The notes beneath the pieces are model-generated. The model was not told the origin of the DNA. It was given only the letters and a program-made list of their open reading frames with translations, and ran no database searches. From Bdellovibrio bacteriovorus (GTDB lineage: Bacteria; Bdellovibrionota; Bdellovibrionia; Bdellovibrionales; Bdellovibrionaceae), in NCBI RefSeq assembly GCF_002208115.1, contig NZ_CP020946.1, positions 1,240,001 through 1,304,000 of the forward strand: a DNA stretch of 64,000 bases, given 5' to 3'. The number at the start of each line of letters is the position of its first letter. Positions within the stretch are counted from its first letter, which is position 1. Below, piece by piece: positions 33,853-55,849 of this stretch. Both the position numbers and the translations under genes were made by a program.

Positions 33853-34017
33853 TTATTCTCCGTCTTTCAAAGGAATCTGTTCCATGTGGGCATAAATCTC
33901 GGTGCTGTTTTTGCGGTATACCCAGATCATCACTCCTACAAAGAAGAGGAAGAAGATCAAAAGGCCCATCGCAGTCAGGTGCGTGTCAGTGAAATATTTC
34001 AGTCCTTCCGATTTCAT
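33853..34017 (-). CDS. ccoQ: cbb3 oxidase subunit IV, CcoQ
   Basis: This 54-residue protein has one membrane segment (LTAMGLLIFFLFFVGVMIWVY) followed by RKNSTEIYAHMEQIPLKDGE, the usual CcoQ layout and length. Its ATG overlaps the ccoNO stop (ATGA), and ccoP starts one base beyond its own stop. CcoQ stabilises the oxidase complex. Confidence 0.85.
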   Translation of the reverse strand: MKSEGLKYFTDTHLTAMGLLIFFLFFVGVMIWVYRKNSTEIYAHMEQIPLKDGE

Positions 34018-36134
34018 TGTACTTTTCCTTTCTGCCCCAGGGACTGCAGGTAAGCAATCAGGGCCACGATTTCCTTGTCTTCAAGACCTTTTGGAGCACC
34101 GTTGGATTCCAGATCCGCAGCGATCTCTTTGGCCTGTTTCTGAGCATAGATGTCGGCGTTGGCCACAACATCGTCTGCATAAGGAACATCCAGCTGTTTC
34201 ATGACGGACAGTTTTTTACGCAGGACCAGGAAGTCGGTCTTTTTTTCTGCCAGCCAAGGATAGTTCGGCATGATACTTTTCGGGGTCACTGCACGCGGAT
34301 CCAGCATATGGCTGTAATGCCACAGGTTCGGATACTTCTTGCCCAGACGGGAAAGATCCGGACCGGTGCGTTTAGAGCCCCATTGGAACGGACGATCGTA
34401 CATGGATTCTTCCACCGTGGAAGCGGCTCCATAGCGCATCACTTCAGAAGCGATCGGACGGATCTGCTGGGAGTGGCAGACGTAACAGCCTTCTTTGATA
34501 TAGATATCACGACCGGCAAGCTCCAGCGGAGAATACGGATCCACGATATTGTTCGGATTCACATAGCGATGCAGGGACAGAGTCGGATAAATCTCGATCA
34601 CGGAACCCACGGCAATGGCCAGGAACGCCAGGACAGAGAACACCGCACCCATGCCTTCCAGTTTGCGGTGACCCTTGGTCAGCTCGTCATAACCGGAACG
34701 GGACACTTCGATGTAAGCATCATGTTGTTCTTTGGGAGCCAGCTTGATGGTTTTATAGATGTTGTAACACATCATCACGAAGCCCACGATGAACAGGAAT
34801 CCACCCAGTGCGCGCACCCAGTAAAGTGGAACGATACGAACCACAGTTTCGATAAAGTCCGGATACACCAAGGTACCGTCTTCACCGACAGCCAGCCACA
34901 TCAAACCTTGAGTGATGCCGGCCACAACCATGGAAGTGTAGTACAGAAGCACGCCGGTCAGGCCGATCCAGAAATGGTTTTCCAGAAGTTTTTTGGAATA
35001 CAGTTCAGTTCTCCACAAGCGTGGAACCAGATAATAAATCATACCGAAAGTCAGGAACCCGTTCCAGCCCAGGGCACCGGAGTGAACGTGACCCACGATC
35101 CAGTCAGTGTAGTGACCGACTGCAGAGATGGATTTGATGGACAGCAGCGGTCCTTCGAAAGTCGACATCCCATAGAAAGTCAAAGCCGCAACAAAGAACT
35201 TGATCAGTGGTTCGGTTTTCAGCAGGTGCCAGGAGCCTTTCAAAGTCAAAAGACCATTGATCATGCCACCCCAAGAAGGCGCCCACAGCATGATGGAGAA
35301 GATCATTCCCAAAGTCTGTGCCCATTCAGGAAGGGATGTGTAAAGCAGGTGATGTGGACCGGCCCAGATATAGATGAATACCAAAGCCCAGAAGTGAATG
35401 ATACTGAGGCGGTAAGAGTACACCGGACGGTTCGCCGCTTTCGGCACGTAGTAGTACATCAGACCCAGGAACGGCGTGGTCAGGAAGAAGGCCACCGCGT
35501 TGTGTCCGTACCACCATTGCACCAGGGCGTCCTGAATCCCGGCATAGACCGGATAGGACTGCAGGAATGTCACCGGAATCTCGATGGAGTTCACGATATG
35601 CAGGACTGCCACAGTGATGATTGTGGAAATATAGAACCAGATCGCCACATACATGTGTTTTTCACGGCGTTGACGGATGGTCATGAAGAAGTTGATGGCG
35701 AAGATCACCCACACCACAGTGATGGCGATGTCGATCGGCCATTCAAGCTCTGCATATTCCTTGGACTGGGAGTACCCCAGAGGCAAAGTGATGGCGGCAG
35801 AAAGAATGATCAGCTGCCAGCCCCAGAAGTGCATCTTGGAAAGCAGATTTGAGAACATGCGGGTTTTCAGCAGTCTTTGGCTGGAATGATAGATCCCGGC
35901 AAAGATCGCATTCCCGGCAAAAGCGAAGATCGCCGCATTGGTGTGCAGCGGTCTCAGGCGCCCGAATGTGATCCATTCCAGATTGGCGTTCATTGGCCAG
36001 TAGGCCAGCTGCAATGCTGCGATCAAGCCAAAAAGAAACGCAGCCCCGGCCCAGATCATGGTCGCCAGGACGAACTTTTTGACAATATCGTCATCGTAAT
36101 AAATTTTCTCGATGAGATTTCCCGATGTGTTCAC
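34014..36134 (-). CDS. ccoNO: Fused cbb3 oxidase subunits I and II (CcoNO)
   Basis: The first ~480 residues are CcoN: RPLHTNAAIFAF with a low-spin haem ligand, YGHNAVAFFLT, GPHHLLYTSLPEW with the CuB His pair, and DWIVGHVHSGALGWNGF. The remainder is CcoO with the haem motif CYVCH at 550-554, then RPFQWGSKRTGPDLSRLG and the axial Met in SIMPNYPW. Most proteobacteria encode these as two genes; the fusion joins the O2-reducing site directly to its first cytochrome. The start is GTG, with AAAGGA upstream, and overlaps the ccoS stop (GTGA). Confidence 0.94.
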   Translation of the reverse strand: MNTSGNLIEKIYYDDDIVKKFVLATMIWAGAAFLFGLIAALQLAYWPMNANLEWITFGRLRPLHTNAAIFAFAGNAIFAGIYHSSQRLLKTRMFSNLLSKMHFWGWQLIILSAAITLPLGYSQSKEYAELEWPIDIAITVVWVIFAINFFMTIRQRREKHMYVAIWFYISTIITVAVLHIVNSIEIPVTFLQSYPVYAGIQDALVQWWYGHNAVAFFLTTPFLGLMYYYVPKAANRPVYSYRLSIIHFWALVFIYIWAGPHHLLYTSLPEWAQTLGMIFSIMLWAPSWGGMINGLLTLKGSWHLLKTEPLIKFFVAALTFYGMSTFEGPLLSIKSISAVGHYTDWIVGHVHSGALGWNGFLTFGMIYYLVPRLWRTELYSKKLLENHFWIGLTGVLLYYTSMVVAGITQGLMWLAVGEDGTLVYPDFIETVVRIVPLYWVRALGGFLFIVGFVMMCYNIYKTIKLAPKEQHDAYIEVSRSGYDELTKGHRKLEGMGAVFSVLAFLAIAVGSVIEIYPTLSLHRYVNPNNIVDPYSPLELAGRDIYIKEGCYVCHSQQIRPIASEVMRYGAASTVEESMYDRPFQWGSKRTGPDLSRLGKKYPNLWHYSHMLDPRAVTPKSIMPNYPWLAEKKTDFLVLRKKLSVMKQLDVPYADDVVANADIYAQKQAKEIAADLESNGAPKGLEDKEIVALIAYLQSLGQKGKVQ

Positions 36135-36286
36135 GATTTTTTCCTTTCGTTTTCGTCATCTAAAATACGGTGTGCTGGTGTCTCGAGGTCATCAAACTGA
36201 CCTTTGGAGGTGGCCCAGAGAAAGGCGGAGACAAAGCCAATTCCCAGAATTAACGCCATGGGGATCATGATCATGATGATGTTCAT
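36131..36286 (-). CDS. ccoS: cbb3 oxidase maturation protein CcoS
   Basis: The 51-residue protein has an N-terminal membrane helix (MIPMALILGIGFVSAFLWA) followed by TSKGQFDDLETPAHRIL, the diagnostic CcoS sequence. It is needed for haem b and CuB insertion in characterised systems. The start overlaps the ccoI stop and the stop overlaps the ccoNO start. Confidence 0.9.
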   Translation of the reverse strand: MNIIMIMIPMALILGIGFVSAFLWATSKGQFDDLETPAHRILDDENERKKS

Positions 36287-38553
36287 CGGAACCCCCACAA
36301 GGATGAAAGAATGATGACCACGGAACTGATGGGCATCAGAATCGCCGCCATCAGCGGATCGATGAATCCGGCCAGGGCCAGGATTCCACCGATGGTGTTG
36401 TAAGTCAGTGAAATTCCCAGATTGCGTTTCAAAACGTTCTGGGTTTGTTCCGAGATTTTCAAAAGATCAAAGAACGGGGAAAGTCCCCCGCGAGTGAAGT
36501 ACACATCCGCACTGTTCAGGCTCAAGTCCACGCTGCCTTTCACGGCGATACCGACGTCCGCCGCCTGCAGGCTGAGTGAATCGTTGGCGCCATCGCCGAT
36601 CATGCAGGTGTTTTTGTGGCGAATGAGAATGTCTTTTTTATCTTCCGGGAATAGTTCGCCGTGGGCGTTCTCACGGGCAATACCACACTGGTTTGCGGCC
36701 TGGTACACGCGACTTTTTTTGTCGCCGGAAAGAAGGAAGCAGTTCATGCCGCGTTTATTCAGCTCTTGCACCGCCTGGGCAGAGTCCTGGCGAAGCTCAT
36801 CCAGGAAATAAAGGCGGCACAGGCTTTGGCCGTCACACAGAACCTCGATGGCGGTTTCGTCCTCGTGAGTGCTTTCTGAAAGATGGCGGATCTCGTAAAG
36901 TTTTCCGTCGATCAGTCCCTTGACCCCTTTACCCAGGATCTCCTGGGCATTTTGCACCGCGGGCATAAATTCAGGATGCGGCCATGCCTGGCGCAGGGCA
37001 AAGGCCAGTGGGTGGTAAGAGGTGGCTTCCAGCGCCAGAATATTGGCCTGCAGGCGCGGAGAGATTATCGCCGGCTCGGAGTGAGACAAAGACAGGTGGC
37101 CTTCAGTCAAAGTGCCGGTTTTGTCAAAGAAGATGTTTTTTACTTCGAGCATGCGTTCCAGACTGGTGGCATCTTTCAATAAAATCCCCAGACGCTGGGA
37201 TTTTTTCAGGGCCAGTCCGAAAGTCAGTGGCGAACCAAAAGCCAGTGCACAAGGGCAGGCCAGGACGATCAGAGCCAAAGAGCGGTTGAAGGCCTCGGAT
37301 ATATCGATGCTGGCGTAAGCAATAAAGAACAGCACCGCGATAGAAAACACCGTGATTATCAACCACTGGGCCAGACGGTCGGTGAGGGCGATAAAGCGGC
37401 TTTTTTTCAAGGCCCCGTGATCCAGCTGCTGCAGCAGCTGACCCAGTTTGGATTCAGAAAACTGCAGGTTCATGCGCACCAGAACTCCGTCATCCAGAAT
37501 TTTGGTTCCGGCGAACAATGTCATCCCGGAAGAAAACACCTTGGGCAGGGACTCGCCGTTAAATAAGGACATGTCCAGCGTGGCGTGGGAAGACAGCAAC
37601 GTGGCATCCGAGGGCAGGCTCTGGCCCTGTTTTAGTTTCAGGACGTCGCCGGCCTTCACAGAGGACCACGGGATCACAGCGGAGGTATCACCGCTGATGC
37701 GCTCGTATTTTTCCATCTGGAAAAAGGACTTCATGCGGGACGGGGAAAGATAGTTCTGCTGCACGCGTTTGAGCAGATAACGCGCTGAAAGGATAAAGAA
37801 CATGAAGCTGGCGGTGCTGTCGAAATAGATGTCGCCGTCACCACGAACCAGGTTGGCGGTGGAAAGGGCAAAGCCGGACAGCATCGCAATTGCGATCGGC
37901 AGATCGACATTGATGACTTTGTATTTCAGGGAATTCCAGGCGCCTTTGTAAAAGGGCTGGGCAGAGTAAAGCAGGATCGGCAGGAACAGGGCAAAGCTGA
38001 GCCAGTTAAATACTGTCGCCCAGGTGCCAGCAAGCCCTGAGTACACCGGAATCACAAACAGCATGGTGTTCCCGGCACAGAAGCCCGCCACCGCGATTCT
38101 TTTTAAAAAGCTGCGGTTTTCGGATTGATAGCGGGCGGCCAGATTGTCCTGGGCGGCCAGCGGTGAAGGTTTGTATCCCAGTTCCGCAATGACATGGGCC
38201 ACTTGCGCCAAAGAACCGCCTTCGGCCAGTTTCACCGCAACAGTGCTTTGACCGAAGTTCACTCGGGCCATGGCAATGCGATCATAAAATTCGGGTAGTT
38301 TCTCCAGCAGATGCACGCACGAGGAGCAGTGCAGTCCTTCGGCAAAGAACAGGAAGTTGAAATCCTGTTTGTCGTGGCTGTAAAGGCGACGGAACTCGGG
38401 CTGATCCAGATAAGCATAAGGATTCTGTTGTTCGGAAAGCACCGGAATTTGTCGCACATGCAGATCCAGAGTCTCGCACGCCGAACAGCAGTACACGGGC
38501 TCGGTGGTTCCGGCTCTGCAGTAGGCGCATTCGTGTAGATTTGCTGTGTTCAT
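36283..38553 (-). CDS. ccoI: Copper-exporting P-type ATPase for oxidase assembly (CcoI/FixI)
   Basis: The N-terminus holds a Cys-rich zinc-ribbon-like segment (CAYC..CCSAC), then a heavy-metal-associated domain with GLHCSSCVHLLEKLP. The membrane CPC motif is in VLACPCALAFGSP, the phosphorylation site in DKTGTLTEG and the hinge in MIGDGANDSLSL. Such ATPases load copper into cbb3 oxidase. The start at 38553 is chosen for GGAG five bases upstream and because an earlier ATG would include the FNR-type box in coding sequence. It is the first gene of the seven-gene cco operon. Confidence 0.92.
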   Translation of the reverse strand: MNTANLHECAYCRAGTTEPVYCCSACETLDLHVRQIPVLSEQQNPYAYLDQPEFRRLYSHDKQDFNFLFFAEGLHCSSCVHLLEKLPEFYDRIAMARVNFGQSTVAVKLAEGGSLAQVAHVIAELGYKPSPLAAQDNLAARYQSENRSFLKRIAVAGFCAGNTMLFVIPVYSGLAGTWATVFNWLSFALFLPILLYSAQPFYKGAWNSLKYKVINVDLPIAIAMLSGFALSTANLVRGDGDIYFDSTASFMFFILSARYLLKRVQQNYLSPSRMKSFFQMEKYERISGDTSAVIPWSSVKAGDVLKLKQGQSLPSDATLLSSHATLDMSLFNGESLPKVFSSGMTLFAGTKILDDGVLVRMNLQFSESKLGQLLQQLDHGALKKSRFIALTDRLAQWLIITVFSIAVLFFIAYASIDISEAFNRSLALIVLACPCALAFGSPLTFGLALKKSQRLGILLKDATSLERMLEVKNIFFDKTGTLTEGHLSLSHSEPAIISPRLQANILALEATSYHPLAFALRQAWPHPEFMPAVQNAQEILGKGVKGLIDGKLYEIRHLSESTHEDETAIEVLCDGQSLCRLYFLDELRQDSAQAVQELNKRGMNCFLLSGDKKSRVYQAANQCGIARENAHGELFPEDKKDILIRHKNTCMIGDGANDSLSLQAADVGIAVKGSVDLSLNSADVYFTRGGLSPFFDLLKISEQTQNVLKRNLGISLTYNTIGGILALAGFIDPLMAAILMPISSVVIILSSLWGFR

Positions 38554-38601: not shown

Positions 38602-38615
38602 ATGATCGGGATCAT
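38602..38615 (-). promoter_or_regulatory. FNR/DNR-type box of the cco operon
   Basis: ATGAT-CGGG-ATCAT is a perfect dyad 48 bases upstream of ccoI. A class II layout puts the -10 at CACACT (38574-38579, minus strand; three of six). Confidence 0.65.
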
Positions 38616-41094: not shown

Positions 41095-41697
41095 ATGAAA
41101 CTTTCAAAAGTTCACTTTGTGGCGATAGCTTTTTTGATGGCGGGCCCGGTTCAGGCAGGGGATCATGATCATCACCATCATCAAGCCGCACCCGCAGCGG
41201 AAAAATCAAAACCGCTGCATGATGAATCCATTTACAATCTGAATTCCTCTTTGCTGGACGAAGACGGAAAAGTCTTTCAACTGGAAAAGTACCGTGGCAA
41301 GCCTGTGGTCATCTCCATGGCTTACACCAGCTGTGTTTATACTTGCCCACTGATCCTGGCGCAAATGCAGCAACTGGAAAAAGCCCTGGCCGAACAGGGT
41401 AAGAAAGATGTGCGCTTTGTGCTGGTCAGCTTTGATCCGGCCAAGGACACTCCGAAGGTTCTGAAGGACTATGCGAAGAAAAAGAAACTGAGCACACAGT
41501 GGAATCTGCTGACATCCAAGTCTGACAAAGAACCCCGCGAAATCGCCAGCGTTCTGGGCATCAAATACAGCAAAGTCGAAGGCGGTGACTATGACCACTC
41601 CTTTATTATTACTGTGCTGGATGCTGAAGGTGTACCACGCGGCCGCCAAGTCGGCGCGGCAGGAAACCCAAAAGACCTGATAAAGTTCATCCCTTGA
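41095..41697 (+). CDS. SCO1/SenC-family copper chaperone
   Basis: After a signal peptide and a His-rich stretch (DHDHHHHQ) comes a thioredoxin-fold domain with the Cu-binding CXXXC in AYTSCVYTCPLI and the distal His in YDHSFIITVLD. SCO proteins deliver copper to oxidases and, in some bacteria, to nitrite or nitrous oxide reductase. Here it follows nirK-nirV by 12 bases with GAGGAG upstream, so NirK is a likely client. Its stop codon lies inside the next promoter's FNR-type box. Confidence 0.92.
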   Translation: MKLSKVHFVAIAFLMAGPVQAGDHDHHHHQAAPAAEKSKPLHDESIYNLNSSLLDEDGKVFQLEKYRGKPVVISMAYTSCVYTCPLILAQMQQLEKALAEQGKKDVRFVLVSFDPAKDTPKVLKDYAKKKKLSTQWNLLTSKSDKEPREIASVLGIKYSKVEGGDYDHSFIITVLDAEGVPRGRQVGAAGNPKDLIKFIP

Positions 41698-41707
41698 TTT
41701 GAATCAA
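41694..41707 (+). promoter_or_regulatory. Consensus FNR box overlapping the sco stop codon
   Basis: TTGAT-TTGA-ATCAA matches the FNR/DNR consensus arms exactly. Class II spacing predicts a -10 at 41730-41735, where TAAAGT (four of six) occurs, with transcription from about 41742 and the DUF2249 ATG 20 bases on. The sco TGA is part of the first arm. Confidence 0.7.
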
Positions 41708-41761: not shown

Positions 41762-42019
41762 ATGAAAGAGTTCGTAATCGAGGCACAAAAGATCGAGCCT
41801 ATGCACAGACATTCCTATATTTTTGAAAGCTTTGATAATCTGGAGGGCGGTGACAGCCTGGTGATCGTGAACAACCATGATCCACTGCCACTGCTTCGCC
41901 AGTTCGGGGAATCCCGCCCCAACCAGTTTGTCGACGAGTATCTGGAAAAAGGTCCGAACGTTTGGAAACTGCGCCTGACCAAAAAGAAAAAAGAAGGCTG
42001 CTGCGGATTCTGCGAGTAG
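41762..42019 (+). CDS. DUF2249-domain protein with C-terminal Cys motif
   Basis: This 85-residue protein has the DUF2249 pattern (FESFDNLEGGDSLVIVNNHDPLPLLRQF...VWKLRL) and ends in KKKKEGCCGFCE, a possible metal or redox site added to the domain. DUF2249 genes are commonly found with NO-reductase, hemerythrin and NO-responsive Crp/Fnr genes, as here, but have no proven activity. It has its own FNR-type promoter and AAGGAGG. Confidence 0.85.
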   Translation: MKEFVIEAQKIEPMHRHSYIFESFDNLEGGDSLVIVNNHDPLPLLRQFGESRPNQFVDEYLEKGPNVWKLRLTKKKKEGCCGFCE

Positions 42020-42030
42020 CCCCAATAGCA

Positions 42031-42062
42031 AGCCCCTGTTGCGGAAAATCTGCGACAGGGCT
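42031..42062. terminator. Hairpin between convergent DUF2249 and hemerythrin genes
   Basis: AGCCCCTGTTGC and GCGACAGGGCT can pair over about 11 positions with one bulge and one G-T pair. There is no clear T-run, so termination is only probable. Confidence 0.45.
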
Positions 42063-42577
42063 TACGCCAGCAGTTTCTCACATAACACGAACAGACATCC
42101 ATCCTCTTTCGCAATATGCCGGCGCAACAGCTGTTCATAGTCGGACTTTAAAGCTTCCAAAGCCCCGGGATATTTTTCCCGCATTTCGGGTTTTAATAAA
42201 ATTTTAATGGCCTCGGCCAGGTGATGACCCAGTTCATGTTCATCCATGGGCAGGCTGAGCGGGTTCTGCGCGTTCAGCCATTCGAACGACGGATAGGCTG
42301 AGGCCTGGGGCAGGCCCTGTTCATGCAGCAGCTTCAGGCGTCGACGAGGTTCGCTTTGCGGGGCCAGATCCAGCTCCATGCCCCGGAAGTAGGTGCACAG
42401 CGGTCCGCCCTGGCTGAGCAGGGGGTGCGCTGCGATTTTCGGAAACAGCTCCTGTTCCTCCAAGGGGTGATGAACCGCCTCCACAAAATGCAGGATCTCC
42501 AGGATCGGTGCTTTTTGCTCAAACATTTTCAAGATGGTCTGATGCTCCTCGCGAAGCTTTCTTAGAAGGTCGTTCAC
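42062..42577 (-). CDS. Hemerythrin-like (HHE) domain protein
   Basis: The 171-residue four-helix protein has the di-iron His/Glu pattern: REEHQTILKMFE, AVHHPLEEQELFPK, DEHELGHHL and RRHIAKEDGCLF. Such proteins bind O2, NO or iron and often serve in NO defence or iron-sulfur repair (RIC/YtfE-like). The start is GTG at 42577 supported by GGAGG; it lies 59 bases inside the 3' end of the upstream Crp/Fnr gene, so the two are made from one transcript. Confidence 0.85.
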   Translation of the reverse strand: MNDLLRKLREEHQTILKMFEQKAPILEILHFVEAVHHPLEEQELFPKIAAHPLLSQGGPLCTYFRGMELDLAPQSEPRRRLKLLHEQGLPQASAYPSFEWLNAQNPLSLPMDEHELGHHLAEAIKILLKPEMREKYPGALEALKSDYEQLLRRHIAKEDGCLFVLCEKLLA

Positions 42578-43247
42578 TTTCCACCTCCATCAACGCCTGT
42601 CGGTTTAAAATTTCAATATGCCTGTCGGTTGTTTGAATCCAGCCGTTCTTGGTCCACTGGCTCAGGATACGAATCACGGTTTCACTCTGGCTGCCGATCC
42701 GTTCGGCAATATCATTTCGGGTCAGCGGGATGTTGATATAACCGCTTTGTGATCCCTGCCGAGCCAGCAGGCGCAGCAGAAAGTCCGCCACCCGGTGGGG
42801 CGCCAGTTTATGGGACTTGCAGATGTCGTTCTGGAACTCCAGAAAACGCTCGGAGATCTGGCGGTTCACACGCCGGCGCAGTTCCGGGATCTGCATCAGA
42901 TGATCAAAGAACAACCCCACCGGTATTTTCAGTAAAGTGCTGTCCTCGTTACAGACGGCGGAAGTCGGATAGCGGGGGTTCGGAAGTCCGGCCATGGCTA
43001 CGCCCAGGAACTCACCCTGACTGAGGAAGTTGAATATTTTCACTGCATCCCGGTCAATGGACTCCTGAATCTTAAAAGACCCGTACAGCACCAGATAGAT
43101 GTGTTCGATCGGCTGGCCTTTTTCAAACAACGTGTCCCGCTGAGTGCAGTGTATAAGCTCGAAATAGGGTGCGATCTCGCGCAATTCCTTTTCGGTGAAC
43201 TGGCGAAGAAAATCCTGTTTTTTAAGTACGCTGATCTTGTCTGACAT
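42519..43247 (-). CDS. Crp/Fnr-family regulator divergent from norC
   Basis: About 242 residues form a cyclic-nucleotide-like sensor domain (TLFEKGQPIEHIYLVLYGSFKIQES), a dimer helix and a winged HTH (RNDIAERIGSQSETVIRILSQWTKNGWI). The recognition helix keeps the Glu and Arg of FNR's E-x-x-S-R but has Ile for Ser. No N-terminal Cys cluster is seen, so it resembles DNR/NnrR-type regulators, which may sense NO through haem. The start at 43247 has GAGG five bases upstream. An FNR-type box lies 44 bases upstream, suggesting autoregulation. Confidence 0.88.
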   Translation of the reverse strand: MSDKISVLKKQDFLRQFTEKELREIAPYFELIHCTQRDTLFEKGQPIEHIYLVLYGSFKIQESIDRDAVKIFNFLSQGEFLGVAMAGLPNPRYPTSAVCNEDSTLLKIPVGLFFDHLMQIPELRRRVNRQISERFLEFQNDICKSHKLAPHRVADFLLRLLARQGSQSGYINIPLTRNDIAERIGSQSETVIRILSQWTKNGWIQTTDRHIEILNRQALMEVESERPSKKASRGASDHLENV

Positions 43248-43290
43248 AAGGTCCTCTTGCACAGAATGCCAAGACTTTAAGGGCCAAAAC

Positions 43291-43304
43291 ATGATCCGGA
43301 TCAA
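43291..43304 (-). promoter_or_regulatory. FNR/DNR-type box of the divergent crp gene
   Basis: ATGAT-CCGG-ATCAA has both arms of the consensus with one base changed. Its class II -10 on the minus strand would be CATTCT (43263-43268; three of six). Confidence 0.6.
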
Positions 43305-43335
43305 CTCTGGGATTTTTATCATTTAGTGATCATTC

Positions 43336-43349
43336 TTGATCTGGATCAA
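43336..43349 (+). promoter_or_regulatory. Consensus FNR/DNR box of the nor operon
   Basis: TTGAT-CTGG-ATCAA is a perfect consensus site 61 bases before the norC ATG and 45 bases from the box of the divergent gene. The expected -10 region (43371-43378) is T-rich but not a clear hexamer. Confidence 0.72.
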
Positions 43350-49861: not shown

Positions 49862-49875
49862 TTGATCCCGATCAT
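49862..49875 (+). promoter_or_regulatory. FNR/DNR-type box and promoter of nnrS
   Basis: TTGAT-CCCG-ATCAT is one base from consensus. Class II spacing points to 49898-49903, TAGTGT, which keeps the three most conserved -10 bases, with transcription from about 49910. Confidence 0.65.
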
Positions 49876-49939: not shown

Positions 49940-51073
49940 ATGAATACGACTTCAATGGATGCATACCGATACTTCTTCCCAGCGGGCTGGGTGATGGCTG
50001 TGTGGGGTGTGTTGCTGTGGATTCTGTTTCCGTGGAATCTGGTGACCTATCCGGGACTGCATCATCCTGAAATCATGTCGGGTGGCTTCTTTCTGTGTTT
50101 TGTCGCGGGCTTTTTAATGACCGCGGCCCCGAAATTCACCGCAAGCTTTGGTCCCACTAAAAATGAGCAGCGGGCGTCGCTGGTGTTGATTGGTCTATTG
50201 TTCGCAAGCCTGATTCCAGGCAGCAAAACTTTCTTTTATTTCACCGTCACAGCGTTATTTGTTTTCCTGATTACTTATATGGCCCGTCGGTTTTTGAATC
50301 GTAAAAACAATCCGCCGGATTCATTTCTGTTTGTCGGTGTCGGCCTTGGAGCCGGGTTGGTGGGCAGCCTTACTTTGCTGCTGGGGCAGTTTGTGAATGT
50401 GCCCAGTGAGTTGTATCAACTGGCGCGCACGTTCTTCCTGCAGGCGTATGTACTGTGTCTGGTAATGGGTGTGGGAAGCCGTTTGATTCCGGCCCTGCTG
50501 GGCTGGGCTCCGCTGCCAACCGAGTCTTCCAAGTACACTCCGCAGATCAAATTGTATTCGGCTCTGGCCGTGGCTTTCCTGGGAAGTTTTGTGCTTGAAG
50601 TCCTGGTGCAGCCGCTGTCCGGTCAGATTCTGCGCGCCCTGGTGATGAGCTTTATCGTGTTTAAATTCTGGAAGCTGCACCACCTGCCGCAGCGTCGTGC
50701 CTTCCAAAGCTGGTGGCTGTGGGGTTCAGCGTGGATGCTGCTGCTGGGACAGTGGGGCACTGTGGCCTTTTTGGATTTTCGCGTGCATCTGCTGCATGTG
50801 ATTCTGGTCTCGGGATTGGGGTTGATGACTTTCATGATTGCGACGCGTGTGACTTTGTCCCACGGAAAGCATGACATGATCTGGGAGAAGAACTCCAAGG
50901 GGTTGTTCCTTGGAGCCCTTCTGATGGGATTTGCCGGACTGACTAGGTTGTCAGCGGGATTTGCTCCGCACATCTATCAGTCCCATCTGGTCTATGCGGC
51001 GTATACCTGGATTCTGGGTTTGATCGTCTGGGGCTGGTTGTTCCTGCCAAAGATGATACGGGTGAAGGCGTAG
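49940..51073 (+). CDS. nnrS: NnrS-family haem-copper membrane protein
   Basis: The 377-residue polytopic protein has the NnrS N-terminus (YRYFFPAGWVMAVWGVLLWILFPW), LHHPEIMSGGFFLCFVAGFLMTAAPKF, and later His-containing helices (HLLHVILVSGLGLMTFMIATRVTLSHG). NnrS proteins relieve NO stress and are usually under DNR/NnrR/FNR control; that fits the box upstream. Its last 131 bases lie antisense to the 3' end of nrdD. Confidence 0.9.
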   Translation: MNTTSMDAYRYFFPAGWVMAVWGVLLWILFPWNLVTYPGLHHPEIMSGGFFLCFVAGFLMTAAPKFTASFGPTKNEQRASLVLIGLLFASLIPGSKTFFYFTVTALFVFLITYMARRFLNRKNNPPDSFLFVGVGLGAGLVGSLTLLLGQFVNVPSELYQLARTFFLQAYVLCLVMGVGSRLIPALLGWAPLPTESSKYTPQIKLYSALAVAFLGSFVLEVLVQPLSGQILRALVMSFIVFKFWKLHHLPQRRAFQSWWLWGSAWMLLLGQWGTVAFLDFRVHLLHVILVSGLGLMTFMIATRVTLSHGKHDMIWEKNSKGLFLGALLMGFAGLTRLSAGFAPHIYQSHLVYAAYTWILGLIVWGWLFLPKMIRVKA

Positions 51074-52841
51074 GGTGATAGAACCTTTTCGCCGCTTCGA
51101 TCTGGCGGGACTTACTGAAGGCTGAGACCCGCTTCAGATAGCCTATGACCCGGGTGGCGTGGTCAATGTCCTGACTGCCGCACTCGCTGCATTTGTACAG
51201 AGTTCTTTTGTCGATGTGTTCACAAACGTTGCAGATCGTGATCTTGATGTTCACACACCAGTAATTACAGCCTGACAAAGCCGCCGCACGGATCAGTTTC
51301 AGGAATCCGTCGGAAGTCAGTCTTTCCTCCAGATTCAAGTGCAGGGCGGAGCCGCCATCCAGATATTGCATCATTTCCTTGCCGTGCAGATCCATTTTGT
51401 CCAGCGGATTGACGCCGTCGTTTTCCACCACATAGAAATAGGAATTGTAGCAGTCCCTTGGTACGAACAATCCGTCTTTGCGATCCCACTGGGCATTTTT
51501 CACCCCAAGATTTTCCGCCGGAACAAATTCGGTGTTGAACATGAAACCGTATTTTTCCCGCGCTTTGCGGTTGGCATCATAGATGACTTTCAGTTTTTCC
51601 CGCACGAAGTCCTTGTAGGCTGCGCTGTTTTCCACGCTTAGGCCGGAAAACTCGGCCGCTTCCACCATGCCGTTGATCCCGATGGTCAGGAACTGTTTTG
51701 TCAGGGTGATAAAGCCTGCGGAATAGGCACTTAACAAGCCGGCCTCGAAATATTCCTGCATCAGCTGGCGATAAGCGACCTGATACTTTTGCACTTTGTC
51801 CACCATCTCGGCCAGATCCAGATTTTTTTGCACCAGGCGGTTCATGTTGATGGTGATCACATTAATGGATCCCGTCGCGACGCCCCCGGCCCCCAGAGAA
51901 TAGCTGAACGTATTGTCCGAGATTTCATTGCGCAGACGGCAGCAGCTGGCCAGACTGTCGGCGGAATCGCTCATGTACATAAAGAAGCTGTTGCCGCGGC
52001 TCAGTTCGTCGGCGCACATCGTGGCAAAATCCAGGTCCCGCGGGCCCTTGTCATCAACAAGCATGGCGGCTGTGACCACCGGGAAAGTCAGAATCGCCTT
52101 CTTGCGTTCGTCATTGAACCAGCTCATGAAATGAGATTGCAGTTTCTTGACGCTGTCCCAGCGGGGAAGATCGCCGTCCGGGAAAACAAAATCGCCGAAC
52201 AGGGATTTGAAATAGTATTCATCATAGGCCGAGATGTTCCAGAACACTGACTGATAGCCTCTGGCCGCGGCGGGCTGATTGAGGGCATAAACCACGTGCT
52301 GCAGGTGATTGTTGATAATGCGTCGATGCGTTTTCAGGTAATCGTCGCCATAATCCAGACGTGCAAAGTGGTCAAAATACATCAGCCATTCGACGGTGGC
52401 CACGGCGCCGGCAAACTGCGCTGACACGGCAAAAACCAGATTCACAAAACAGCCGCAGAAACTTTCCAGGTGCTGCGGAGCTTTGGATTCGCCACCCAGA
52501 TCTTTAAGTCCCTGCAACAGCAGGGGGTACATGGAGATCGAAGCGCAGTAGGGCTTTAAAGATGTTTCATCATGCACATAAATTTCATGACTTTCAATTT
52601 GGCGCACATATTCTTTTGCCAGATCCGGACCAAAGAGATCGGCGATCTTTCCGGCGACCAGACTGCGGTTGATCTGGATGTTGATGTCCTTGTTGATCTC
52701 GGCCTCCAGTGTGGCGATGTTTTTCAGAGTGACGTTGGCGTTGGCATCCAGCTTGGAGCCTTCAGCGGCATTGCTGGCGGCTTTGTATTGCTGAACAAAT
52801 TCGATTTTTTTCTGTATCTGCTCTTCTGTGAGACGGATCAT
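50943..52841 (-). CDS. nrdD: Anaerobic ribonucleoside-triphosphate reductase
   Basis: The 632-residue class III reductase shows the family features: a glycyl-radical loop RVIGYLK near the C-terminus, the zinc-site Cys in CNVCEHIDKRTLYKCSECGSQD and a conserved mid-region (GAGGVATGSINVITINMNRLVQK). No N-terminal ATP-cone is seen. It makes dNTPs without oxygen. The usual end of the protein (KRFYH) coincides with the nnrS stop, but the frame runs on for 36 more codons antisense to nnrS, giving a Pro/Ser/Arg-rich tail. Confidence 0.92.
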   Translation of the reverse strand: MIRLTEEQIQKKIEFVQQYKAASNAAEGSKLDANANVTLKNIATLEAEINKDINIQINRSLVAGKIADLFGPDLAKEYVRQIESHEIYVHDETSLKPYCASISMYPLLLQGLKDLGGESKAPQHLESFCGCFVNLVFAVSAQFAGAVATVEWLMYFDHFARLDYGDDYLKTHRRIINNHLQHVVYALNQPAAARGYQSVFWNISAYDEYYFKSLFGDFVFPDGDLPRWDSVKKLQSHFMSWFNDERKKAILTFPVVTAAMLVDDKGPRDLDFATMCADELSRGNSFFMYMSDSADSLASCCRLRNEISDNTFSYSLGAGGVATGSINVITINMNRLVQKNLDLAEMVDKVQKYQVAYRQLMQEYFEAGLLSAYSAGFITLTKQFLTIGINGMVEAAEFSGLSVENSAAYKDFVREKLKVIYDANRKAREKYGFMFNTEFVPAENLGVKNAQWDRKDGLFVPRDCYNSYFYVVENDGVNPLDKMDLHGKEMMQYLDGGSALHLNLEERLTSDGFLKLIRAAALSGCNYWCVNIKITICNVCEHIDKRTLYKCSECGSQDIDHATRVIGYLKRVSAFSKSRQIEAAKRFYHPTPSPVSSLAGTTSPRRSNPESRYTPHRPDGTDRCAEQIPLTT

Positions 52842-53305
52842 AGGGAGGGCTCCTTTGTGTTGTGTTGAAAAAGATGATTTAAAGTTTCACCGCTACGCAG
52901 ATCCCTGAAGATCTGATTGGTGGTGGGCGACCACAGGCCTCCGCGGGCAGTGATCCACGGGCCGGTTTTTAAAAAGTCGAGGTGTTGTTGCAGTTCATGC
53001 GGGATGTGATCCAGCCCCGTATAAAGAGCGGTGAGGAGATCTTCCTGATGCGCGAGTTTTAAAAATTCAAGGAGTTCGTCCTGGCGCCATTCTCCACCCA
53101 GGAAGAGGACGCAGGAGATTCGCTGGCGGTAGCGTCGCACCAGTTCAAGAAACATGATCGGCGTCAGGGGAGTGCCGGTCTTTTCGGTCCAAAGTTCCGG
53201 AGAATGACACCCCGGACATTTCAACGGGCAGCCACAAACATAAAACGCCAATGAGATATGATTTGGGACTTCCTGGAAGACGATGTCGTGCTTATAGATG
53301 TTCAT
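52838..53305 (-). CDS. nrdG: NrdD-activating radical SAM protein
   Basis: About 155 residues carry the radical SAM cluster motif in CGCPLKCPGC and a downstream FLGGEW segment that matches the SAM-binding GGE. It generates the glycyl radical on NrdD. The start at 53305 has GGAG six bases upstream; an in-frame ATG five codons earlier is less well placed. Its stop overlaps the nrdD start by four bases. Confidence 0.92.
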   Translation of the reverse strand: MNIYKHDIVFQEVPNHISLAFYVCGCPLKCPGCHSPELWTEKTGTPLTPIMFLELVRRYRQRISCVLFLGGEWRQDELLEFLKLAHQEDLLTALYTGLDHIPHELQQHLDFLKTGPWITARGGLWSPTTNQIFRDLRSGETLNHLFQHNTKEPSL

Positions 53306-53373
53306 GCTGGTCTCCACCACTAGATATAGGATAGCGGCGCAAAACCCGGTGACACCCCTATAGTGGCGAAAGC

Positions 53374-53387
53374 ATGATCGAGATCAC
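53374..53387 (-). promoter_or_regulatory. Probable FNR-type box of nrdGD
   Basis: ATGAT-CGAG-ATCAC matches four of five bases in each arm. A -10-like TATATC (53323-53328, minus strand) would put it near -64, close to a class I position (-61.5). Weaker than the other sites. Confidence 0.5.
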
Positions 53388-53458: not shown

Positions 53459-54103
53459 TTATTTGGGACTTTGCAGAATCTGAATTTGTTTGTGATTCAT
53501 TTTGATCTGGCCTTCGTTTTCGAGTTCAGCCAGTGCGCGCGAAAAGGTTTCGGGTCTGAGACCCAGCATCAGCGCGACTTCGTGTTTTTTTCCACTCAGC
53601 TGCAGCAGTGGTTTGTTTTGCTCGCTTTGCAGGCGGCACAGATAGGACCACACACGCTCTTTTGCAGAAGGTGTGTTGATGTTTTCAATGACGTTGTTGA
53701 GGTTTGCCATCCAGCGCACCAAAGAGGCCACCACAGATTGATAGAGCAGAGGGTTTTTCTGCAGAATGTTTTGCAGTTCTTTTTTTGGCAGATAGAACAC
53801 TTCGGTGGGTTCGGTGGTCGCTGCGGTGTCAGCCTGGCGATCCTGTCCCAATAGACTGCCTTCACCAAAAGTTTTTCCGGCGCCCAGAAGACCCAGCACG
53901 ATCTCTTTCCCATTCGGAGAGATCTTTGAGATTTTCACAGTGCCCTTGGTGATCAGGAACAAACCTTTGGATTCGTCCTCCTGTTCAAACAGCAGGGCGT
54001 TCTTAGGATAGGTTTTTTTCTGAATGACGGAAAGAATCTGTTCAGTGACGTCTTCTTCCTGGGTGGAGCAGATCGGGCAGTTGTCGATGAAGCGTTTTTC
54101 CAT
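53459..54103 (-). CDS. Crp/Fnr-family regulator with FNR-type recognition helix
   Basis: The 214-residue protein has a sensor domain (ALLFEQEDESKGLFLITKGTVKISKISPNGKEIVLGLLGAGKTFGEGSLL) and an HTH whose recognition helix reads RPETFSRAL. This contains the E-x-x-S-R of FNR/DNR that reads TTGAT half-sites, so it is the best candidate to bind the dyads in this window. Two N-terminal Cys (NCPIC) are too few for a full FNR cluster. It lies ten bases after the next regulator on the same strand. Confidence 0.88.
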   Translation of the reverse strand: MEKRFIDNCPICSTQEEDVTEQILSVIQKKTYPKNALLFEQEDESKGLFLITKGTVKISKISPNGKEIVLGLLGAGKTFGEGSLLGQDRQADTAATTEPTEVFYLPKKELQNILQKNPLLYQSVVASLVRWMANLNNVIENINTPSAKERVWSYLCRLQSEQNKPLLQLSGKKHEVALMLGLRPETFSRALAELENEGQIKMNHKQIQILQSPK

Positions 54104-54113
54104 AAAGGCCGCC

Positions 54114-54815
54114 TTAGCGAATCTCCGCGCGGTCTTTCAGACGGTCGCGGGAAAGAATGCGAATGCTGCGCCCATCTGTCTGGTCAATCAGGCCGTCTTT
54201 TTCAAACTGAGACAAGGTGCGAATCACGGTTTCTGGAGTTGTGCCGGCCCACTGGGCGATTTCCCGGCGTGTCCAGTTCTGATGTGCGAAGTGATCTTGC
54301 AGGAAGATCAGGGCTTCGGCGATGCGCTCGGAAGCGCCCTTATCCATTTGGTCCATCCATTTTTCCTCGGCCATTCGCAGGTCCTTGGAAATATGAGACA
54401 GAAGCTTCATGGCCAGTTCAGGATAACTTTTGAAGATGTTCATGATTTCGGCTTTGGGAACGAAGCACAGTTCGCAGTCTTCCACCGCCACAGCCGAAGC
54501 GTGGTAAGGCTCATTGGCAAACATAGAGCGATAGCCCAGGGTGCCGCCCGGTCCGACCAGACGCAGGGTGTGAGCCGCGCCGGATGCTGAGGTCACTTCC
54601 AATTTAACCAGACCAGACTGGATGGTGAAAATACCCAAAGGATCATTGCCGGAATAAAAAATGATCTGGCCGGCTTTGAAGCGGCAGGAAACACGGGCTT
54701 TTTCAACCATCAGCAGTACATCCGGATTGGAGCACAAAATGCTGTCCAAGCGGTTGCCACAGGTTTTGCAGGATTCAAGGTTGGGTTGAGGGCCGCATTC
54801 TTTTTTGATCGACAT
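54114..54815 (-). CDS. Crp/Fnr-family regulator with N-terminal Cys cluster
   Basis: The 233-residue protein begins with several Cys (KKECG, then ESCKTCGNRLDSILC), an arrangement that could ligate a [4Fe-4S] cluster as in oxygen-sensing FNR, though spacing is not identical. Sensor and HTH follow; the recognition helix TPETVIRTL keeps Glu and Arg. It is the first gene of a two-regulator operon. No good Shine-Dalgarno precedes the ATG. The pairing suggests one O2 sensor and one NO or redox sensor sharing similar sites. Confidence 0.87.
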   Translation of the reverse strand: MSIKKECGPQPNLESCKTCGNRLDSILCSNPDVLLMVEKARVSCRFKAGQIIFYSGNDPLGIFTIQSGLVKLEVTSASGAAHTLRLVGPGGTLGYRSMFANEPYHASAVAVEDCELCFVPKAEIMNIFKSYPELAMKLLSHISKDLRMAEEKWMDQMDKGASERIAEALIFLQDHFAHQNWTRREIAQWAGTTPETVIRTLSQFEKDGLIDQTDGRSIRILSRDRLKDRAEIR

Positions 54816-54856: not shown

Positions 54857-55849
54857 TTATTGATACTGCAGTAAGGCTGAGTGCAACAAAAGACTGTCGT
54901 CGAGACCTTGGAATAGGGGCGTATTCAGGCGCAGGGCCGCATGGTGAGCTTCGTCCGGCAGTTTCCAGGTTTTTAAGCTGGACTCAAACAAACGCTGGAA
55001 TTCGGCCTCTGAGGCTTCAGGCAGGGCTGCAGTCATGGCCAGGCCCTCCCGCCGTTTGAAGTAACCCAAAAGGACGGCCTTGAAGGTTTTCAGCAGATGC
55101 AGTGGGAAAGAGTTCATATCGGACATCAGATATTCAAATTCTTTTTTGAAAACCGGATCTGTCTGCAACATGGTCTGAATTTCTCTGAAGCCAAAGACCA
55201 CCAGCAAATGACGGCTGAATTCAATTTGCGCACGGGCTTTGGCCGGGTCGGCGAAGAAATGGTCCGCGTGAATCAAGTCATGCACGATAAAACCCAGGAC
55301 ATCGCGCCCTTCCTCAACAAATTCCTGCATTTCCGTCAGGTCCTGCAGCATCGAAACACAGCGTTGGCCTTCGGTCTGCATGCTCAATACCTCTTTGGGT
55401 GTGGGCACATAAGACAGCAGGCGCAAGGGATAAAGCCCGCTTTCCCAGGCCATCAGGGATTGAGCCACGGACAGCGGAATAGAGCGCCAGCTGTGGGAGC
55501 AGAAATAGGTTAAAAGATCATCGGGGCGCTGAAAGCGGAGCAGGGACTTTGCCTGACGCAGGTCTTCAGGGAGGTCTTTTTGCAACAATTCGTAAAAGCT
55601 CTGGCAGCTCATTCGCGAATGTGCCGGAAGGTGGGCCAGGGGTTTGTTGTGCGGGCCTCCAAGAAAGTCTTTGGGGCGGCGTAAAAAGCTGAACACCAAA
55701 ATGTAAATTGCCGCGATTTCCGCATCAGACAAGGATTTGCTCTGCCACAGACGCATAAAAACCTGCAGGCACTTGTGGGCCAGCGGGCTTGTGTTTTTCA
55801 GGAATTCGTCCTCCAGAAGACGATGACGGAATCGGCCGACGCGTAACAT
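54857..55849 (-). CDS. Hypothetical protein, helical, unknown
   Basis: The 330-residue protein is soluble, without signal peptide or membrane segments, and mostly helical. A His/Asp-rich block in its middle (FIVHDLIHADHFF) could bind metal; several other His/Cys lie in DLLTYFCSHSW. I do not recognise the family. It lies 41 bases upstream of the two-regulator operon on the same strand. The ATG has no evident ribosome binding site. Confidence 0.65.
   Translation of the reverse strand: MLRVGRFRHRLLEDEFLKNTSPLAHKCLQVFMRLWQSKSLSDAEIAAIYILVFSFLRRPKDFLGGPHNKPLAHLPAHSRMSCQSFYELLQKDLPEDLRQAKSLLRFQRPDDLLTYFCSHSWRSIPLSVAQSLMAWESGLYPLRLLSYVPTPKEVLSMQTEGQRCVSMLQDLTEMQEFVEEGRDVLGFIVHDLIHADHFFADPAKARAQIEFSRHLLVVFGFREIQTMLQTDPVFKKEFEYLMSDMNSFPLHLLKTFKAVLLGYFKRREGLAMTAALPEASEAEFQRLFESSLKTWKLPDEAHHAALRLNTPLFQGLDDSLLLHSALLQYQ

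Follow-up and report, generated by a model that had tools for sequence, protein, structure and literature searches.

Two CRP/FNR regulators and their distribution

The window, a stretch of 64,000 nucleotides of the Bdellovibrio bacteriovorus contig NZ_CP020946.1, encodes two neighbouring CRP/FNR regulators on the minus strand. FnrA (54114..54815) is a protein of 233 amino acids with an FNR-type set of cysteines, and FnrB (53459..54103) has 214 amino acids. Both combine a cNMP-binding-like domain (PF00027; E values of 2.9e-20 for FnrA and 4.4e-22 for FnrB) with a Crp-type winged helix (PF13545; 3.8e-16 and 1.2e-11), each over the cut-off, which is the domain architecture of the CRP/FNR superfamily. 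A first-pass annotation of this DNA had described the genes as a two-regulator operon. Coordinates, strand and family assignment of the pair were confirmed, and the gap of only 10 bp between fnrA and fnrB suggests that they form an operon. The genome (3.77 Mb, single contig) encodes five HTH_Crp_2 proteins, three of them inside the window. The gene preceding fnrA, in this genome as in many relatives, encodes a 330-amino-acid protein (54857..55849, minus strand) for which a family search gave no matches.

Among 24 genomes of the genus, fnrB is located directly behind fnrA in only three (G000, G002, and G006). FnrA orthologs, defined in this genus sample by an E value below 1e-70, are present in 22 of the 24 genomes, 18 of which have the cysteines, and FnrB is present in 15. 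Of the 15 genus genomes with both genes, 12 do not have them side by side. FnrA occurs without FnrB in seven of the 24 genomes; G035 and G046, which are not of the genus, have FnrB and no FnrA. Both in the window and in G002, fnrA is separated from ccoI by a block that includes nirK, dnr, nnrS, nrdDG, and fnrB. In G013, fnrB is found about 18 kb from fnrA, together with nnrS and nirK and without nrdD or dnr. The genes nrdD and dnr are shared by the same 14 of the 24 genus genomes, every one of which has fnrB. Insertion of this anaerobic block between fnrA and ccoI is the simplest reading, presumably with the block moving in this direction, and it is the position of the block in this lineage that brings fnrB to within 10 bp of fnrA.

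Cysteines of FnrA

FnrA has cysteines at positions 7, 16, 19, 28, 44, 114, and 117. Cys16, Cys19, and Cys28, arranged as C-x2-C-x8-C (codons within 54732..54770, minus strand), are the proposed N-terminal Fe-S ligands, and Cys117 (codon 54465..54467, minus strand) aligns with Cys122 of Escherichia coli FNR. Alignment and co-loss agree on three N-terminal cysteines and a Cys122 equivalent. Of 61 distinct FnrA homologs (BLAST E values up to 1e-30), 49 possess the three-Cys motif together with the fourth cysteine, ten possess neither, two possess the fourth cysteine only, and none possesses the three-Cys motif without the fourth. One of the two exceptions has an unreadable N-terminus and the other is a Bacteroidetes protein without the third cysteine. 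The set of four is thus nearly always either complete or missing altogether, as predicted for an FNR-type [4Fe-4S] ligand set. The N-terminal Cys cluster pointed out in the first-pass annotation as a possible O2-sensing site agrees with this pattern, and the sensing half of that interpretation is supported by sequence conservation; its inventory of cysteines was incomplete in that it missed the fourth ligand. An AlphaFold model of FnrA (pLDDT 80, pTM 0.60) has the CRP/FNR fold; residues 1-17 are of low confidence, and the model confirms the fold and not the cysteine site.

The ten homologs without the cysteine set are four Bdellovibrio orthologs (G011, G012, G022, and G023), paralogs, and a group with the helix ETVTR. 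In the four orthologs (L026 and L028-L030), all four cysteines are gone and the ETVIR recognition helix is kept. The same four genomes encode the cco cluster away from fnrA, which rules out that the cbb3 oxidase was lost where FnrA lost its cysteines.

Recognition helix and candidate operators of FnrA

The recognition helix of FnrA reads PETVIR (residues 194-199; 54219..54236, minus strand), as had been recognised before, with Ile where FNR has Ser212 and where the FNR pattern E-x-x-S-R requires Ser. In the loci of most relatives, fnrA adjoins the cbb3 oxidase genes ccoI-ccoNO-ccoP-ccoG, and a palindrome ATGAY-N4-RTCAT (A/A box) between fnrA and ccoI is conserved across relatives. It is this A/A box, and not the classical TTGAT-N4-ATCAA, that is found at the candidate FnrA targets. 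In the window, the A/A box ATGATCGGGATCAT (38602..38615) is the proposed FnrA operator of a gene that we take from its sequence to be a ccoI-type P-ATPase (36283..38553, minus strand); its start is proposed at MNTANLHECAYC, so that the box lies upstream. The ORF at 34014..36134 (minus strand), which is conserved in relatives, is presumably ccoNO, in which a single reading frame encodes both the N and the O subunit of the cbb3 oxidase. Some 205 bases ahead of ccoNO, a sequence resembling CTGATGCCGATCAG is conserved; it was rejected as an operator because it is inside the ccoI coding sequence.

A perfect A/A box precedes ccoI in 16 of the 18 readable cco loci with a four-Cys FnrA, and the remaining two (L059 and L099) match it at nine of ten positions. 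It was not found before ccoI in any of the seven cco loci without FnrA (L092, L093, L096, L097, L103, L104, and L107; Fisher's exact test, 7.5e-5), among which we count L103, where only a divergent, Cys-less homolog is present. L101 was left out of this count because the contig ends there. The four genomes with a Cys-less ortholog have one perfect box before ccoI, two boxes with nine of ten positions, and in one case none.

The genome contains 26 ATGAY-N4-RTCAT palindromes, mostly within ORFs. Four precede genes, namely those for a hemerythrin, a Usp, and a cupredoxin, and ccoI. Of 18 loci of the hemerythrin gene, 11 have a perfect box before it, including G012, whose FnrA is Cys-less, and G016, which keeps it in the absence of FnrA from an assembly that is about 90% complete; the box is retained at nine of ten positions in G023 and at eight of ten in G022. 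In each of the other five loci, the gene is a second paralog, a distant homolog, or incomplete, or comes from another genus. Across 29 A/A boxes (11 hemerythrin and 18 cco), a -10-like hexamer was best placed 36 bases after the start of the box, i.e., 29.5 bases from its centre, and none of 1000 shuffles reached as high a score. A spacing of 29.5 bases from the box centre is the geometry of class II activation. The -10 at +36 was not seen in the six divergent fnrA/ccoI loci in the one orientation tested.

The association of helix and box extends beyond the genus. A perfect A/A box is present in the flanks of 33 of 65 distinct ET[VM][IMV]R regulators (GT[TA][PT]ET[VM][IMV]R-type, related sequences included), a T/T box (TTGAY-N4-RTCAA) in those of one, and a C/C or G/G box in those of none; the other 32 are without an A/A box in the flanks examined, some of which are short. 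Dinucleotide-shuffled flanks yielded a mean of 0.27 A/A boxes and at most two in 100 rounds. Outside Bdellovibrionota, A/A boxes were found in Bacteroidales/Bacteroidetes (L204, L205), Dehalococcoidales (L209, L210), Eremiobacterota (L215 and L216, with L220 of the same group by name), and Nitrospiraceae (L221). Many of these loci are related and the counts are thus not independent. Three ETVTR regulators have T/T boxes in all three cases and A/A boxes in none; as they form one related group (L206, L207, and L218), this contrast is close to a single event, and A/A presence alone does not separate the helix classes significantly (Fisher's exact test, 0.24). The change in the recognition helix of FnrA seems to matter. 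We reject the idea that FnrA is unable to recognise a site, given its conserved, predicted operator class.

A 198-amino-acid paralog of FnrA (L003, G000:C1:2558653-2561841) has the helix TPTVIR, in which Glu is replaced; ORFs in its vicinity resemble those of a metallo-beta-lactamase-fold hydrolase and a rhodanese. We found no paper on an FNR box ATGAT-N4-ATCAT or on a Bdellovibrio FNR protein in a literature search outside which most subscription papers lay.

FnrB and its candidate targets

FnrB has cysteines at positions 9, 12, and 156. The first-pass annotation had judged these too few for FNR, which is correct inasmuch as the four-ligand set is absent. The two N-terminal cysteines, however, are not residual: they belong to a CPIC motif (residues 9-12; 54068..54079, minus strand) that is identical in all 16 distinct FnrB sequences aligned, unlike Cys156, and that suggests a thiol or metal site. 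Equally invariant (16 of 16) is RPETFSR, which includes the recognition helix ETFSR (residues 185-189; 53537..53551, minus strand) and agrees with both the FNR pattern E-x-x-S-R and the true FNR helix ascribed to this gene before. A structure predicted from the single FnrB sequence was uninformative (pLDDT 48).

The best candidate for an FnrB target is a gene for an 85-amino-acid DUF2249 protein (41762..42019, plus strand) behind the T/T box TTGATTTGAATCAA (41694..41707), the proposed FnrB operator. The T/T box precedes the DUF2249 gene in 15 of the 17 matches listed, including G013, which has no dnr, and G035, which has no FnrA, and the two misses (L048 and L051) come from different parts of genomes in which L072 and L054 carry the box. 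The gene lies between convergent sco and hemerythrin-like genes and is below the limit of 120 amino acids of our ORF listing. A small RNA behind the box at 41694 was ruled out, as this is the promoter region of the DUF2249 gene.

Downstream of fnrB are genes for an nrdG-type activase (52838..53320, minus strand; TIGR02826 over cut-off) and the class III ribonucleotide reductase NrdD (50943..52841, minus strand; TIGR02827 over cut-off), the latter with a strong match in the window to a Bdellovibrio-named NCBIfam NrdD model. The FNR-like box upstream of nrdG (ATGATCGAGATCAC, 53374..53387) is in most genomes of the form GTGAY-N4-RTCA[T/G], which is neither A/A nor T/T. A T/T box was found before nrdG in G046, where FnrB is present and both dnr and an FnrA ortholog are absent, and another at fnrB/nirK in G035. 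Two repeats that we take to be NrdR-box-like overlap the FNR-like box of nrdG in many genus genomes (e.g., L049) and are less clear in the window. The nrdD ORF extends about 44 residues past its family match and overlaps tail to tail with the nnrS ORF by 131 bases (50943-51073).

Hybrid boxes in the anaerobic block

The third CRP/FNR regulator in the window (42519..43322, minus strand; helix SETVIR), for which we use dnr as a convenience label, has norC and a hemerythrin-like gene as neighbours. The gene of the dnr-like regulator shares about 59 bases with the hemerythrin-like one (42062-43322), and several relatives have retained the pair. The interval between dnr and norC contains the hybrid box ATGATCCGGATCAA (TTGAT/ATGAT; 43291..43304) and the T/T box TTGATCTGGATCAA (43336..43349), and a further hybrid, TTGATCCCGATCAT (49862..49875), is upstream of nnrS (49940..51073, plus strand; PF05940). 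Hybrids of the form TTGAY-N4-RTCAT recur at dnr, nnrS, and some nirK promoters, where the T half is the distal one and the A half lies nearer the promoter. The helix of dnr is also ETVIR, yet its promoters have hybrid T/A boxes. In G035, which lacks FnrA, an A/A box in the dnr/nnrS interval and a T/A box at nnrS accompany the T/T box at fnrB/nirK. Perfect WTGAYNNNNRTCAW boxes number ten in the window (15281-49875) as compared to 1.46 expected in shuffles, and eight of the ten are located at 38.6-49.9 kb, around the cbb3/nirK/nor/nnrS block.

Hybrid operators could possibly reflect binding of two homodimers, relaxed reading by one, a promoter constraint, or a heterodimer. If promoter sequence constrained the outer base of the proximal half, no second regulator would have to be invoked, and ATCAT is indeed the proximal half in the cco, hemerythrin, dnr, nnrS, and many nrdG boxes. 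The DUF2249 promoter, however, is T/T at the same -10 spacing and in the same genomes, and four nnrS promoters are T/T as well, which leaves promoter constraint a possible but somewhat doubtful explanation.

A model of separate regulators

We consider it likely that FnrA is a stand-alone O2 sensor with the A/A box as its operator and that FnrB is a separate regulator of the anaerobic block. The three N-terminal cysteines and Cys117 of FnrA would hold an O2-labile [4Fe-4S] cluster, which would lead to dimerisation at low O2. The homodimer would bind ATGAY-N4-RTCAT, centred about 41.5 bp before the start, and activate the cbb3 oxidase genes from ccoI onwards and the bacteriohemerythrin gene, probably also the Usp and cupredoxin genes. 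Ile in place of Ser212 is accompanied by A, rather than T, as the outer base of both half-sites. FnrB would be a second regulator within the anaerobic gene block (nrdDG, nnrS, dnr, nirK, and DUF2249) that keeps ETFSR and probably reads the classical TTGAY-N4-RTCAA. In this model, the gene neighbourhoods, the co-loss of cysteines, the conserved boxes, and the -10 spacing are computed, and we infer the cluster, the O2 response, DNA binding, activation, and the direction in which the block moved.

It is unlikely that the A/A box is the site of a different CRP/FNR protein, i.e., the 198-amino-acid TPTVIR paralog or dnr, with FnrA merely nearby. G016 would fit this idea, as it keeps the hemerythrin box without FnrA and has a 198-amino-acid-type paralog, and dnr shares ETVIR with FnrA. 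However, the ccoI box tracks the presence of FnrA, the paralog lacks the helix Glu, dnr is absent from several genomes with a cco box (e.g., G005, G007, G013, and G015), and ETV[IM]R genes of other phyla have A/A boxes in their flanks. We would likewise not expect FnrA to have lost O2 sensing and to act as a constitutive or other-signal activator with cysteines that serve zinc binding or structure. The four Bdellovibrio orthologs lacking all four cysteines still have the helix, in some cases also the box, as such a loss would have it, but the exact FNR ligand set is near all-or-none over the 61 homologs and stands in a cbb3 context, and the four genomes with a Cys-less ortholog have their cco genes away from fnrA.

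A more elaborate proposal, which we regard as quite improbable in its joint form, is an outer-base code in which a hydrophobic residue at position 212 specifies ATGA and Ser or Thr specifies TTGA, and in which a heterodimer of FnrB with dnr or FnrA would occupy the hybrids as an AND gate. Its orientation on the hybrid operators of dnr, nnrS, and nirK would be fixed, and the signals could be such as O2 and NO.

Very improbable, too, is the division of labour proposed in the first-pass annotation, in which FnrA would sense O2 and FnrB find the FNR box. The two would work as a heterodimer or in a relay, and the hybrids would be their sites: the tight coupling in three genomes and the T-distal, A-proximal boxes at dnr, nnrS, and nirK agree with it, but each regulator has a symmetric candidate box class of its own, each gene is found without the other, and most genomes with both do not have them as neighbours. 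Heterodimers as such had been called conceivable, and hybrid TTGAT/ATGAT operators do occur; FnrA, however, is not required for them, given the one in G035, and they may be single-homodimer or dual-regulated sites.

Should the model of separate regulators hold, a single helix residue keeps two regulons apart within one cell, and a simple rule for box prediction would become available for many uncharacterised CRP/FNR proteins of several phyla. A low-oxygen regulon would then be defined for predatory Bdellovibrio, in which the four orthologs lacking all four cysteines offer a natural test of an O2 sensor that loses its cluster.

Comparison with known systems

FnrA shares with FNR of E. coli and Aliivibrio fischeri the CRP/FNR fold, the three N-terminal cysteines, and the equivalent of Cys122, and A. 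fischeri FNR is among the Foldseek matches of the FnrA model (rank 24). The class II spacing of the boxes is also common to both. FnrA differs from FNR in the arrangement of the N-terminal cysteines (C-x2-C-x8-C versus C-x2-C-x5-C in E. coli FNR) and in having Ile with ATGAY-N4-RTCAT where FNR has Ser212 with TTGAT-N4-ATCAA. With 47.8 bits, it misses the cut-off of 228 of the FNR model PRK11161. FnrL-type regulators control cbb3 genes at low O2. FnrL of Rhodobacter (NF045989) is the top NCBIfam match of FnrA, at 61.8 bits and a missed cut-off of 300, and its box differs from the A/A box. The top NCBIfam match of FnrB is FtrB (NF006901), at 75 bits and a missed cut-off of 211; function is not transferable from it.

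Co-evolution of helix residues and box bases is established for the CRP/FNR regulators HcpR, DNR, and NnrR, with R180 corresponding to G3 and E181 to A6 (Rodionov et al. 2005, PMC1274295); the available text of that study names neither the position of FNR Ser212 nor an ATGA half-site. FNR Ser212 and the FNR box are described in a study of Pseudomonas putida, which has three FNR paralogs in one cell, including PP_3287 with Cys in place of the recognition Ser (PMC4505428). According to the accessible part of that work, a common FNR box is expected for the P. putida paralogs, whereas in Bdellovibrio the change in the helix goes with another box.
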